Origin: Parashewanella curva
GTDB taxonomy: Bacteria > Pseudomonadota > Gammaproteobacteria > Enterobacterales > Shewanellaceae
DNA length: 64,000 bases
Direction of reading: 5' to 3'
Assembly (NCBI RefSeq): GCF_003675895.1
Contig: NZ_ML014761.1
Span: forward strand, 1 to 64,000
Positions within the stretch are counted from its first letter, which is position 1. Every line of letters starts with the position of its first letter. This document shows, in pieces, positions 26,547 through 32,702 of the stretch. The notes beneath the pieces are model-generated. The model did not search any database. It saw only the letters and a list, made by a program, of their open reading frames with translations, and had not been told where the DNA came from. The translations under genes and the position numbers were made by a program.

Positions 26547-27752
26547 ATGGCCGTTGATGCACCAAATACATTGGAACGACTTCCTAATGGGCTCGATCCA
26601 TCATTACCCAGAGACCAAAAAGTATCGACATACATTCAGGCTTCGAGCACACCTGAAAATAGTGATAAAATGCCAGATACACTTAATTTGCCATTACGGA
26701 AAAAGCATTATTCTGGGATGCAGTATAAGGTTACTATTCTACGCAGGACCTGTAACGAACTCACCAATTCAGTTGATGCAAAATCAAAACAATTTTTCGT
26801 CGATACTTTGACTCAATTGCAAATGACTAGTGACATTTCGTTTGCAATGGAGTGTACATTTGAGATGAATCGTGTTCTTCAACATCCTTTTACTGTTTCT
26901 GTCGTTCCAACAATAGAAAAACAACTCCAAGTTTATCGCTTTTTCCTTACGAAGCACACAGCTGAACAGTTACTATTGGCTGCAATTACCAAGCCTCGTT
27001 CTACACAGACTAAAGCGCCTATTTTGCCGCCTATTAACGCTCAATTCATATTACTACCTAAAAGTTTCACTCGAGCTCCAGTTTTATTAAAACTAGATGA
27101 GAATCCTTCGAAGATCTCGCCGATCATACACCCACGTCCTTTTCGTGCAGGAACCTTTAAGATTCGACCAAGCTATAAACCTATGGCACCAACACCACCG
27201 GAATCTGCTGTTCATTCACGTGCTGTTTCTAAAGCTACACTACCATCGCTGGCCAATAATGACGCTGAACCGCCTTCTACACTGGCCGGTGAAAGCAAGG
27301 CTAGTAACTTAGCTCAACCATCTACTCATACTAAACCCAAACGCAGAATTCGCCACAGAACAGTAGCTAAAACTCACTCTGGACAACCTAGCCAACGCAA
27401 TGTCATTGCTAGAAGTAAAGATCAAGCTGGCCAGAAAAGTCGTGTTCAGCCAAAACTCAATATCAGTCAAACACAACCGAAATCAACTTCTTCAGAGTTG
27501 CTAACACCGATAACCGCAGAGAAAAGCCAACCAACGCCTTCTATTGCAGAGACTGAAAACAGGCATCCCTTACCAGATATATATTCTACAGATGAGAAAG
27601 ATGAGTCTATAACCTCAAAACCAGAGCCATCACTAAGTGTCCGAGAAGGGTTATCTGCTAAGCCATCAATATCGCCGTTGAATTCAGAGCCTGAAGGAGA
27701 ACGTTCCACAAGTCATTCATTCAGTATTCTTCCGGCTGATTCTGAACAATAA
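26547..27752 (+). CDS. Unrecognised 401-residue protein with a disordered C-terminal half
   Basis: I do not recognise it. Residues about 50-160 look folded (mixed helices, two cysteines, LQVYRFFLTKHTAEQLLLAA). The rest (about 165-401) is rich in Pro, Ser, Thr, Lys and Gln with no hydrophobic core, so probably disordered; a basic KPKRRIRHR patch lies inside. There is no signal peptide. It starts about 90 bases beyond the S10 promoters and is transcribed away from them. A second unrecognised gene follows 44 bases later. It is probably lineage-specific. Confidence 0.65.
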   Translation: MAVDAPNTLERLPNGLDPSLPRDQKVSTYIQASSTPENSDKMPDTLNLPLRKKHYSGMQYKVTILRRTCNELTNSVDAKSKQFFVDTLTQLQMTSDISFAMECTFEMNRVLQHPFTVSVVPTIEKQLQVYRFFLTKHTAEQLLLAAITKPRSTQTKAPILPPINAQFILLPKSFTRAPVLLKLDENPSKISPIIHPRPFRAGTFKIRPSYKPMAPTPPESAVHSRAVSKATLPSLANNDAEPPSTLAGESKASNLAQPSTHTKPKRRIRHRTVAKTHSGQPSQRNVIARSKDQAGQKSRVQPKLNISQTQPKSTSSELLTPITAEKSQPTPSIAETENRHPLPDIYSTDEKDESITSKPEPSLSVREGLSAKPSISPLNSEPEGERSTSHSFSILPADSEQ

Positions 27753-27796: not shown

Positions 27797-28222
27797 ATGG
27801 CAATTAATACTTCTTCACATGTTCACAATTTATGTCCAGATATATTTCATGGATATGTTCATGGTGAAGCTCGTCCCTTTGTCACTACAGGGCACCAAGG
27901 TGCCTTTGAAGTGTTATTTGACCAATTAGCGACATGTACAACAGAGGCTAGTACTCGAGATGTGGTTAGTGAACTTAATCGCTATTTAAAGGGGTTTCAT
28001 CAAGGTGGGCCTGGCTTTTTTATCAAAACCCAACATTACGGTATTGCGCCAAATAAAGACGCAGGGATTTCGTGTTTGGTACTGTTTAGCGAGAGCAAGA
28101 ATGATCCCTATAAACTTTTGGTTCGTCGCTTTTCAATTTCCAAACCCAAGGATAAACAAGGTTACAAGCCCAGACCATCCAACTACTCAAATACCCATTT
28201 AACCAAGTTATATCGCAATTAG
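27797..28222 (+). CDS. Unrecognised 141-residue protein
   Basis: No family is recognised and no signal peptide or membrane helix is visible. It is a compact soluble protein with a PGFFIKTQHYGIAPNKDAG centre and a basic, Tyr/Asn-rich C-terminus. It may share a transcript with the 401-residue gene 44 bases upstream. Its TAG stop is formed by the first bases of the MITE-like element at 28220; without the element the same position would read TAA, so the protein is not truncated by the insertion. Confidence 0.65.
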   Translation: MAINTSSHVHNLCPDIFHGYVHGEARPFVTTGHQGAFEVLFDQLATCTTEASTRDVVSELNRYLKGFHQGGPGFFIKTQHYGIAPNKDAGISCLVLFSESKNDPYKLLVRRFSISKPKDKQGYKPRPSNYSNTHLTKLYRN

Positions 28223-28486
28223 GGCGTGTTGACCTTTCGTGATTGTTTTTGCAGCGAGAAATTGGTTATCTTATGCAAGGCGGAATTTGTGAAGTGTGGC
28301 AGCCCCACAGAAACAAACGACAACGTAGCAGAAGTGACCAATTTACGCTGTCTTCGATGCTTTTGAGCACTTTCTGTTCTATGTTGTGACCAGTTTACTT
28401 AGATGGCTAAGCTTCACTGCTCACGCCTTGAACAGAAAAGTGCTCAAATAGCACAAAATTTAATCCAGGAAGATCAACACGCCCTA
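28220..28486 (+). mobile_element. MITE-like element, copy 1 (267 bp)
   Basis: Ends are inverted repeats: TAGGGCGTGTTGACCTT on the left and the complement of TAGGGCGTGTTGATCTT on the right, with TA at each edge as expected from a TA target duplication. A second copy lies inverted at 30885-31055 and aligns along its whole length, except that copy 1 has about 96 extra bases after the first 35. Inner arms (GAGCACTTTCTGTTC against GAACAGAAAAGTGCTC) make it foldable. It has no transposase, so it would need one supplied in trans; the TA target suggests an IS630/Tc1-like source, which I cannot confirm. Confidence 0.75.
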
Positions 28487-28529: not shown

Positions 28530-30122
28530 TTATCTATCAAACTGGGCGACGAGATCTTGTTGCTGTTCATTTTGCACCGTAAGACCTTGGCTGAGTTCGA
28601 CTGAACTATCGATATTATCTAACAGTGCCTCTGTATTAAGTTTTATAGCATCCATATTTTCTTGCACTTGCAACATAGCTTGAGATTGTTGCTCAGCCGC
28701 TACTGCAGTTTGCTGCCCCATATTATGCACTTGCTTAAGGGCTGTATTCATTTTGAGTAGCGTATCTTTTAATGCTTTTTCTGATTGAGTGCTCTCCAAA
28801 ATCATACTCTGACTGTGTTGCATTTGCGCTACCGCCACAGCTGTCGTTTGCTTTAGCCCATTAATGATTTCTTGAATTTCTTTGGCTGAAGTCTGCGAGC
28901 GATTGGCTAGCATTCTGACCTCATCGGCCACTACCGCAAACCCTCTTCCGGCCTCCCCAGCCCGTGCCGCTTCAATGGCTGCATTCAATGCCAACAAATT
29001 AGTCTGTTCAGCAAGGCTGTCTATCACATTCAGCACAGAGTCAATTTTGCCACACAGCTCATCTAAATTCGCAATTGAAGACTGCGAGCACTCTAATAAC
29101 TGGGTAATTTTGTTGCTGGACTCCTGGGAGATGCTCAATGCCGTTTGGGTATCAACCAGTTTTCCGATGCTTTCCTCTATATGCATTGCAGTATCAACGG
29201 TGTTTTCTGCCACTTCACTGATGGCTTCACTCATTTGGCAAACCGACATTGCCACTTGAGACAAATTATCGTTCTGCTCTGCCAGATTGGTTAAGTTTTG
29301 CTGGTTTTGGTCATCTTGAACAAGAATCGACTTTTGCAGTTTTTCACCACTGTCTTGTATTCGACCGACAATGGCTAAGGTTTCGGCTTTTCTCATTCTC
29401 AAGCTTAACTCTAAATGAGACAATTCATCAATTGTGCCACTATAGAGGTATTGACCGATTTTGTTATCATGCACTTCGGAGCTCAATTTCATGAGTCCTT
29501 TAAGCCTCTCTTTTAACCACCACAAGCCTATAAACCCACTAATAACTCCAAGCCCACTTATCCCCCATTGGATCACAACACTCTTGGACGATAAACCAGC
29601 GAAGACCATTAACAAGCTCATCCCCCAGATGAGCCCTATTTTGTGCACAAGAGATAGTGACCATTGTGGCAGTGATACGCTCCCTTTTTGTAATTTTTGA
29701 TAACACTCTGCGGCACGTTTTTTTAACTCTGGCTCAAGTTGTGTCCTCACCGATTGATATTCAACCGTTTTCCCTTGCTGTTTAACAGGACTAACGAAGG
29801 CATTAACCCAATAGTAATCACCATTTTTGCAGCGATTTTTAACCATTCCCATCCAATTATGGCCTTCTTTAATCGTTAGCCACATATTTTCAAATGCTTT
29901 CTTTGGCATATCTGAATGTCGAACGATGCTATGAGGCTTATCTATCAATTCCTCATAGCTGTAACCGCTCACAGCGACAAAATCTTGATTAGCATAGGTA
30001 ATACGACTATCAAGATCGGTTGTTGAGAGCAGTTTATAATGAGAAGGGTATTCAACTTCCTGTGAATGAACGATTGATGAGCTTTTCAAGTGAAGCACTT
30101 TTTTACTTGTCATTGATTCCAT
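28530..30122 (-). CDS. PAS-domain methyl-accepting chemotaxis protein (Aer-like)
   Basis: 530 residues. A PAS domain (about 30-130) has the Aer-type segments [35 protein letters not shown] and [13 protein letters not shown]. Two close hydrophobic helices (about 162-178 and 183-203) form a membrane hairpin with no large periplasmic domain, then a HAMP-like linker. The signalling domain includes the tip [20 protein letters not shown] (about 370-389). Sensing is therefore intracellular, and by homology to Aer may be redox or oxygen through FAD. It is a single gene; an FNR-like box lies about 90 bases upstream. It sits between two MITE-like copies. Confidence 0.92.
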
Positions 30123-30347: not shown

Positions 30348-30860
30348 CTAACAGCCCGAATTTACAATAGACTCACTGGGTCGTTTAGGTGAACCGAGTG
30401 TACCTGCTTCGGTGTAAATTAAATAACAATTTTTTGGAGCATTTGAAGCATAAATTTTCACTTGCCCAGGAACATTGCCTTGCACATCCAGTACATCCAT
30501 ACTCCAATTAGAAGCGGCACTGTATATACTTTGCTTGGCGTTATAGGCAATATTAAGCCCATTTTCTAACGAGGAGCGACTGGCTTTTAAAAAACCATTA
30601 ACTAATGAAACAGGAATTGAATTAATGGTGATATCAGCTTTACCAGTGGTTACCTGATTCTCTTCCGCATTCTTATGAATAATACTATTCGCATGCTCTA
30701 AGGCGATTTCTAATGAAGCTATCGCTTTAGCGTGGGTTTCTTTAGCTACTTGTTCGTTTGTAGATTTTTGACTGATGATCACTCCCGCCACAACTGCAAT
30801 CCCCAAAACGAGTATTAACCCTGTGGTTTTAGATTGCCCTGTTCCATATTTATTCTTCAT
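30348..30860 (-). CDS. Membrane-anchored protein with MSHA-pilin-like C-terminus, paralogue 1
   Basis: 170 residues: one N-terminal helix (about 13-30), then a periplasmic domain. Two cysteines (Cys145 and the terminal Cys170) enclose 24 residues, in NCYLIYTEAGT...IVNSGC, resembling the disulfide loop at the end of MSHA pilins. The PVSLVNGFLKAS segment also resembles the pilin body. There is no prepilin leader (no G-F-T-L-[IV]-E), so it is not a normal type IV pilin substrate. I start at the ATG 30858-30860 with GAGG upstream; a longer frame to 30968 reads through the MITE-like element. It is a paralogue of 31131-31637. Confidence 0.75.
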   Translation of the reverse strand: MKNKYGTGQSKTTGLILVLGIAVVAGVIISQKSTNEQVAKETHAKAIASLEIALEHANSIIHKNAEENQVTTGKADITINSIPVSLVNGFLKASRSSLENGLNIAYNAKQSIYSAASNWSMDVLDVQGNVPGQVKIYASNAPKNCYLIYTEAGTLGSPKRPSESIVNSGC

Positions 30861-30884
30861 AGCGCACCTCATGTTTGATGAGTC

Positions 30885-31055
30885 TAGGGCATGTTGATCT
30901 TTCAGGATTAAATTTTGTGCTATTTGAGCACTTATCTGTTCATGGCGTGAGCAGTGAAGCTTCGCCATCTAAGTAAGCTGCTCACAATAAAAAACAGGAA
31001 GTGCTCATAAACATCGAAGACTGCAAAAATAAACACGAAAGATCAACACGCCCTA
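30885..31055 (-). mobile_element. MITE-like element, copy 2 (171 bp, inverted)
   Basis: It is bounded by TAGGGCATGTTGATCTTTC and GAAAGATCAACACGCCCTA. Read on the minus strand it aligns with copy 1 (28220-28486) apart from the 96-base segment that copy 1 has in addition. Nested inner arms (GAGCACTT/AAGTGCTC and GTGAGCAG/CTGCTCAC) allow the whole unit to fold into a long hairpin. It lies between two paralogous genes, 25 bases upstream of the start of paralogue 1. No transposase is encoded. Confidence 0.75.
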
Positions 31056-31130
31056 AAATCAGAGTTTTGGTTGTTTTACCTAACTCTGTATCAACAAGAA
31101 AGTGCAACGCTAGACAATGTCAGCTGAGGT

Positions 31131-31637
31131 TCAGCATCCATTATTGACGATGATATATTGCGGTGCTCGGGGATGGCTACTAGTACCTGCTTCGGTATAG
31201 AGCAAATAACAATTTGCTCCAGCCCCTCTTGGAATGAGCTTAATTTGATGTGCGCCCAATGATGCAGTCTTTGAAGGTATCATCTGCCAATCGATTTTTT
31301 TGATGTGAGGCAGGACTAAGAGCTTTCGGGCAATGTCTAACCCATTTTCAAGTGAAGAAGTGGTAGCTCGAAGCTTACCATTCACCAAATCTAATGACAC
31401 ATCACCAAAATAATCATGATGGATCCCAAAATTACCGGTAGGCTCTGGCCCTAACACCACTTCATTTACGTGCTTTATGGCCACCACAATATCAGTCAGC
31501 GCGTGCTGATGATTCGCCTTTAGTGCTTCCATTTTCTTTTCTTGGTTTACGGTTACCAATAAAATCAACAGGATCAACACAATGCCTGCAACGAGTACTA
31601 AGATTTTGCTATTAGACATACCTCGATGATGATTCAT
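31131..31637 (-). CDS. Membrane-anchored protein with MSHA-pilin-like C-terminus, paralogue 2
   Basis: 168 residues: one N-terminal helix (about 11-30) and a periplasmic domain ending NCYLLYTEAGT...IVNNGC, with Cys143 and the final Cys168 again 24 residues apart. It shares SLENGL-IA, LVNG-L-A and the C-terminal loop with the gene at 30348-30860, so the two arose by tandem duplication. No prepilin motif is seen. The start at 31635-31637 is chosen for its AAGGAGGGG ribosome-binding site; an upstream in-frame ATG adds 13 residues. Function is unknown; a pilus or surface-fibre accessory role is only a guess. Confidence 0.77.
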   Translation of the reverse strand: MNHHRGMSNSKILVLVAGIVLILLILLVTVNQEKKMEALKANHQHALTDIVVAIKHVNEVVLGPEPTGNFGIHHDYFGDVSLDLVNGKLRATTSSLENGLDIARKLLVLPHIKKIDWQMIPSKTASLGAHQIKLIPRGAGANCYLLYTEAGTSSHPRAPQYIIVNNGC

Positions 31638-31706: not shown

Positions 31707-32702
31707 TTATTGTTTGGCTTGATATAATTCTTTGCGTTCAGAATCAGACAAGAAAGCCATCTCTACACCATTTCGTTGAGCTTGTTCCAGCTGGGCTGCT
31801 GTTAACCCAAGCTCTTGCTCCGCTACATGATACTCGTGCTTAATATCAATATTACTGACACCAGGATCATCAGTATTAAGCCCAATACAGATATCGTGAT
31901 CTAAGAACTGAATAAACGGGTGTTCAGAATAATGAGACACGGTAGAGGTATGTAAATTACTGGTCGGGCATGATTCAATACCAATTCTATACTTGGCTAA
32001 ATAGTCCATAAGCTTAGGATCATGTATGGCCTTAACACCATGTCCAATTCGAGTAGCGCCAAGTTCGGTGATCGCCTGCCACATGCTTTCGCTACCTGCC
32101 GCTTCACCGGCATGAACCGTAATATTTAAGTCCGCATCACGTACTTGCTTGAAATGCTCCTTAAATAAATCGCCAGGGAAGCCGAGTTCATCACCCGCTA
32201 AGTCCATACCGACCAAGTGCTGCTTATGAGCCAGTAAAGCATTAAGCTCTTGCTGACAGGCTTCTACACCAAATGAACGAGACATGATCCCAATCAGATT
32301 AATTCGAGTGTCGAAGTCCTTAAGCCCTGCTATAACACCATCAATGACGGCTTCAACCACACCTTCAACCGACAGTTTGTTAGTCATAGCCATGTAGTAT
32401 GGACTAAACCTCAGTTCTGCGTAGTCCAAACCAGATTCAGCCGCATCTGCAACATTTTCATACGCCACGCGTTTAACGGCATCTAAATCAGCTAATACGG
32501 CAACCATCCAATCCAACTTTTTTAAAAAGCCGAGTAAGTCACTTTCTTTACCTTGAATTTGAACAAAAGGGGCAAGCGTTTCAAGGCTATCTGCAGGTAG
32601 AGCAATACCGTGTTGGTGCCCTAACTCCCAAATCGTGTTCACTCTTACATTGCCATCTAAATGACGATGTAAATCCACTAACGGAATGGTGTTATTTATC
32701 AT
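31707..32702 (-). CDS. add: Adenosine deaminase
   Basis: 331 residues, normal for the enzyme that converts adenosine to inosine in purine salvage. Zinc and catalytic motifs are present: HRHLDGNVR near residue 12, HAGEAAG (catalytic Glu) near 197, [16 protein letters not shown], and the metal-binding LNTDDP near 276. It acts in the cytosol as a zinc TIM-barrel. It is separated from the pilin-like pair by 69 bases on the same strand. Confidence 0.95.

Follow-up and report, generated by a model that had tools for sequence, protein, structure and literature searches.

MshA-like pilin paralogues without a recognisable prepilin cleavage site are conserved across the genus Parashewanella

Genes A and B of Parashewanella curva lie in tandem and encode paralogues of the MSHA major pilin located outside the MSHA cluster, an assignment that is well supported by sequence searches and structural models. 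The loss of the recognisable prepilin processing site is also well supported, and extends to all 12 homologues (hereafter, orphans) collected from five Parashewanella species. We put the probability at about 0.5 that A and B, as leaderless MshA paralogues, act as a fixed partner of the MSHA system outside the filament and would modulate the MshA pool or pilus assembly and possibly signal to an Aer-like chemoreceptor; this is the function that we infer for them.

The window, i.e., the whole stretch of 64,000 nt analysed here, is part of contig 9 of a 4.78 Mb genome. On the minus strand, the genes follow the order add, gene B, gene A and PAS-MCP, and the features of the locus are the following.

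31707–32702, minus strand: add, adenosine deaminase (PF00962, E = 2e-107; synteny)
31131–31637, minus strand: gene B, MshA-like protein of 168 aa without a prepilin cleavage site (phmmer, AlphaFold, Foldseek)
30887–31053, no strand: internally shortened MITE copy of 167 bp (at least 40 related copies; spacer of the sister species without it)
30348–30860, minus strand: gene A, MshA-like protein of 170 aa without a prepilin cleavage site (phmmer, AlphaFold, Foldseek)
28530–30122, minus strand: PAS-MCP, Aer-like chemoreceptor with a PAS domain, a membrane hairpin and an MCP signalling domain (PF08447, PF00015)

Besides add and PAS-MCP, the locus contains a lipoprotein-like protein, together with what we take to be, by our own reading, an alpha/beta-hydrolase-like protein and ribosomal genes. 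Between the MCP gene and the ribosomal operon lie two plus-strand ORFs (26547–27752 and 27797–28222) without a Pfam match; similar ORFs occupy the same place in the sister species (G004, L061:6367-7409).

The initial annotation described tandem pilin-like proteins with one N-terminal membrane helix each, and both ORFs were found in place. Their start codons (30860 for A and 31637 for B) are kept in the sister species. Each protein has a single hydrophobic helix starting near residue 12, preceded by MKNKYGTGQSK in A and MNHHRGMSNSK in B. The closing cysteines (145 and 170 in A, 143 and 168 in B) had been described as 24 residues apart, which is correct for the number of residues between them, the positions themselves being 25 apart; this spacing is constant in 12/12 homologues. 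The pilin-like segment reported earlier is present as VSLVNG in A and LDLVNG in B.

No Pfam, NCBIfam or PHROG model names A or B above chance. A phmmer search against all PDB sequences returned a sole match, MshA of entry 9lab, the cryo-EM structure of Shewanella oneidensis MshA pili (E = 7e-15 for A and 9.9e-10 for B). AlphaFold (AF2) models, built from eight genus sequences with a mean pLDDT of 80 (A) and 82 (B), feature one helix of 54–56 residues (A 12–67, B 8–61), followed by an antiparallel sheet and the C-terminal Cys loop, giving a pilin lollipop for both proteins. In the Foldseek comparison with the PDB, 9lab_B was the sole significant match (E = 1.2e-8 for A and 3.2e-6 for B; TM 0.58–0.67). 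The resemblance of the C-termini to those of MSHA pilins, proposed in the initial annotation, is thus borne out, and the modelling and homology searches named there as able to refute the pilin reading both came out in its favour and uphold it. The Cys145–Cys170 (A) and Cys143–Cys168 (B) pairs may form the loop disulfide.

Proteins A and B share with S. oneidensis MshA the pilin fold, the single N-terminal membrane helix and the C-terminal Cys loop NC[YF]L-YTEA...GC, with 27% identity in the structural alignment. Unlike MshA, they possess neither the GFTL[IV]E site nor Glu5, are encoded outside the MSHA cluster and are presumably uncut and absent from the filament. A tree that also included 42 canonical MshA proteins groups all 12 orphans into a single clade (support 100/100), in which A makes up one subgroup (moderate support, 91/74) and B and the third copy, C, the other, with a program warning of long branches. 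These proteins are pilin homologues, yet they are not prepilins by definition.

The absence of a G-F-T-L-[IV]-E leader, noticed at the outset, was confirmed. Neither A nor B matches PF07963 (N_methyl) or TIGR02532, models matched by the genome's own MshA proteins, and neither is among the 19 ordinary class III signals of the genome, all of which match prepilin models. A mis-called start hiding a prepilin leader was rejected for both genes: the sole in-frame extension of A (36 aa) is MITE-derived, and the in-frame upstream reading of B brings no GFTLIE. The Gly at which canonical MshA is cut precedes the Asn of an 'AN' motif by 47 residues, and Asn was found at exactly this distance in 40 of the 42 proteins checked. 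The orphans keep the motif and the register, ungapped, and the Gly position is occupied by Lys (seven proteins), Asn (one), Pro (two) or Val (two), while position +5, Glu5 in pilins, carries a hydrophobic residue in 12/12. The last residue of a prepilin leader is invariably Gly or Ala, followed by a hydrophobic stretch (PMC10191384), and since this position is replaced in every orphan, A and B are likely not cleaved. The single MshA-related clade, the ungapped register and the replacements in 12/12 agree with the earlier suggestion that these are pilins that lost their processing site. No described case of pilin-like proteins without a prepilin site was found in the open-access literature.

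Eight of the 12 orphans keep Gly6, which is then followed by five polar residues before the membrane helix. The leader ending in Gly6 resembles that of MshA (MKQHQG vs MHKHQG, MNNQQG and MKNKYG) and looks like its descendant, with the cut point seemingly pushed away from the membrane. At the edge of the helix, Gly14 is found in A of P. curva (G000) and the sister species, and Ala12 in A of the close pair G001/G002. The retention of Gly6 and the presence of Gly14 or Ala12 in the A group make it conceivable that some atypical cleavage may occur at these points. Processing by PilD at such an unusual site would let A and B be incorporated as minor pilins into the MSHA pilus, and the variable length of prepilin leaders and the usual, not universal, presence of Glu5 (PMC10191384) speak for it, as does the short polar leader before Gly6, with Met at +1 in four of the eight. 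However, the five polar residues between Gly6 and the helix end in Lys or Asn, no Gly or Ala is suitably placed in B and C of G001/G002, conservation of Gly14 and Ala12 is lacking even inside the A group and neither protein of the window is recognised by prepilin models, which makes this explanation distinctly unlikely.

The locus add–pilins–PAS-MCP lies near the S10 ribosomal operon in 5/5 species; the same-genus genomes include Shewanella sp. OPT22 and Parashewanella hymeniacidonis (G002), in which the locus is split over two contigs. Three species carry two copies (A and B) and two species carry three (A, B and C). Between P. curva and the sister species, orthologue identity is 78% for A and 80% for B; dN is 0.12 and dN/dS 0.05–0.06 for both genes at saturated dS; for G001/G002, dN/dS is 0.06–0.30. 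All 12 orphans are intact, with 15 invariant positions. By these sequence measures, the pilin body, the Cys pair and the membrane helix are held under purifying selection. Decay of duplicated mshA genes into relics would be in keeping with the lost processing site, the position outside the MSHA cluster and the MITE near gene A. This origin is contradicted by the dN/dS values, the intact reading frames, the invariant residues and the synteny in five species, and is extremely improbable; recent pseudogenes are ruled out by dN/dS and synteny as well. The site loss is old and genus-wide and not a recent decay, and is best explained by the loss of the class III signal before Parashewanella diversified.

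The distribution was studied with the genus alignment in 153 Shewanellaceae and in samples of the order (395 genomes) and the class (369 genomes). The orphans scored 191–230 bits, and everything else in the 153 Shewanellaceae scored at most 93 bits. No member was found in the other 148 Shewanellaceae, nor any high scorer in the sampled 395 order and 369 class genomes; hence, a wider family of leaderless MshA proteins was rejected within this set. The next best matches read (L078–L122) carry GFTL[IV]E, with the exceptions of L108, in which the N-terminus is masked, and L082, which is read only after an internal stop. The latter is the mshA gene of P. hymeniacidonis (C271:6833-7330), which has an in-frame TAA in the assembly; the three leaderless paralogues of this species are intact. 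The idea that Shewanella already had a copy of the locus was likewise rejected: in the genomes read, add adjoins a hemN-like gene or a contig end, with no pilin.

The spacer between B and A is split by a short non-coding element, as the initial annotation proposed in calling it MITE-like. Its 17-bp terminal inverted repeats, GGGC[AG]TGTTGATCTTTC, contain one mismatch, and TA stands on both sides as the target duplication. At least 40 copies of the family were scored in the genome, most of the aligned ones longer, so that the present copy is regarded as lacking an internal part. The syntenic spacer of the sister species is an empty site of 107 bp, and the element is thus most simply a later insertion in the P. 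curva lineage. The gap between its edge and the ATG of gene A measures 26 bp and includes a GAGG motif. The initial annotation suggested that the element might have altered the expression of this gene; the scan for promoters and terminators gave no more matches than shuffled sequence gives. The element provides an in-frame upstream start at 30968, which accounts for the mechanical 206-aa ORF of gene A; automatic annotation could add a false 36-aa N-terminal extension from 30861–30968. A second, longer copy (28219–28486) lies just past the PAS-MCP gene on its 3′ side, and the pilin–MCP group is thus flanked and split by copies of one element.

The genome search for MSHA genes suggested in the initial annotation revealed a complete canonical cluster (L066) apart from the A/B locus. 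The genome contains one prepilin peptidase (PilD), and MshE is present in 5/5 Parashewanella species. Within L066:7142-10299, the cluster includes four tandem MshA-type pilins and, downstream of these, an unrelated glycine-rich, membrane-like ORF of 165 aa (L066:7142-7639). The ORF at L066:10537-11064 is presumably MshF, a bitopic accessory protein. Like A and B, it has a single N-terminal helix without the prepilin motif; unlike them, it shows no recognisable kinship with MshA, and its gene is part of the MSHA cluster. At the A/B locus, no secretin, ATPase or chaperone genes were found. The other earlier suggestion, anchored pilus-like proteins of a different assembly route, was therefore discarded, with no assembly genes at the locus and the canonical cluster elsewhere. 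A different relation to the canonical pilus would be that of an inhibitor or decoy: when expressed, uncleaved mimics of MshA would take up places on the MSHA platform or cap filaments as they grow. The MshA-like helix and head and the loss of the usual Glu5 in all copies are consistent with this, but divergence to about 30% from MshA exceeds what a simple decoy would need, and such a role seems very unlikely.

In all five species, add lies upstream and PAS-MCP downstream of the pilin genes, both on the same strand as these. The chemoreceptor is 59–84% identical within the genus and at most 38% elsewhere (40 relatives searched). According to the hydropathy profile, it has a short membrane hairpin near residues 155–203 and almost no periplasmic part. 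As the invariant neighbour is an Aer-like receptor that has just a membrane hairpin, it is natural to guess that contact is made via membrane helices. A link between the pilin paralogues and the chemoreceptor, based on adjacency and common restriction to the genus, nevertheless seems rather doubtful to us. It is similarly unlikely that A and B are the dedicated sensing input of PAS-MCP, independent of the MSHA pilus. The same-strand adjacency, the equal genus restriction and the hairpin-only architecture of the receptor speak for such an input; against it, adjacency is the sole basis, the intergenic gaps are about 160–475 bp (the range of the gap between A and the MCP gene) and Aer-type receptors normally sense by their own PAS domain. 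Quite unlikely, too, is a sensory module peculiar to the genus, with uncleavable pilin paralogues that stay permanently in the inner membrane and would monitor the MSHA pilus, or the pool of its subunits, and signal via a membrane helix to a dedicated Aer-like chemoreceptor encoded beside them.

For A and B as a fixed partner of MSHA, the following mechanism can be proposed. If PilD does not cut these proteins, they would keep a short cytoplasmic N-terminus and stay in the inner membrane as single-pass proteins whose head faces the periplasm, which is the topology of prepilins (PMC10191384). They could then not be extracted and polymerised into a filament, and might still pack against MshA by the pilin helix or the head, or contact the platform. 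In this way, they would tune the MshA pool or pilus assembly from outside the filament. Their state could possibly be passed through the membrane helix to the adjoining Aer-like chemoreceptor, as in the PilA–PilS and the proposed PilA–PilJ pairs of Pseudomonas.

A regulatory role gains plausibility from two analogies. The accessory protein TfpY helps in building the pilus but is not detected in it (PMC11841053). Proteins of the TfpY/FimB type resemble A and B in function only, as membrane proteins with a periplasmic C-terminal domain that act with pilins and go undetected in the pilus; they differ in having three membrane helices and another architecture and are not pilin homologues (PMC11841053). 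In Pseudomonas aeruginosa, PilA is read by PilS (PMC6058289) and, as proposed, by the chemoreceptor PilJ (PMC12607626). The likeness, again an analogy only, consists in an inner-membrane pilin as the input of a membrane receptor; the reporter is a true pilin in Pseudomonas, whereas in Parashewanella it would be a leaderless paralogue beside an Aer-like receptor.

Pilins are defined by a cleavable leader, which is also what annotation pipelines use to detect them, so that pilin-fold proteins without a leader are left unnamed. The occurrence of several intact copies across Parashewanella suggests that a pilin may lose its filament signal and yet stay under selection. Since the whole genus keeps pilins that are presumably fixed in the membrane under selection, the pilin fold may have been reused for a non-filament job. 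With a locus as small as this, the roles that pilins may play in the inner membrane, apart from filaments, become testable.
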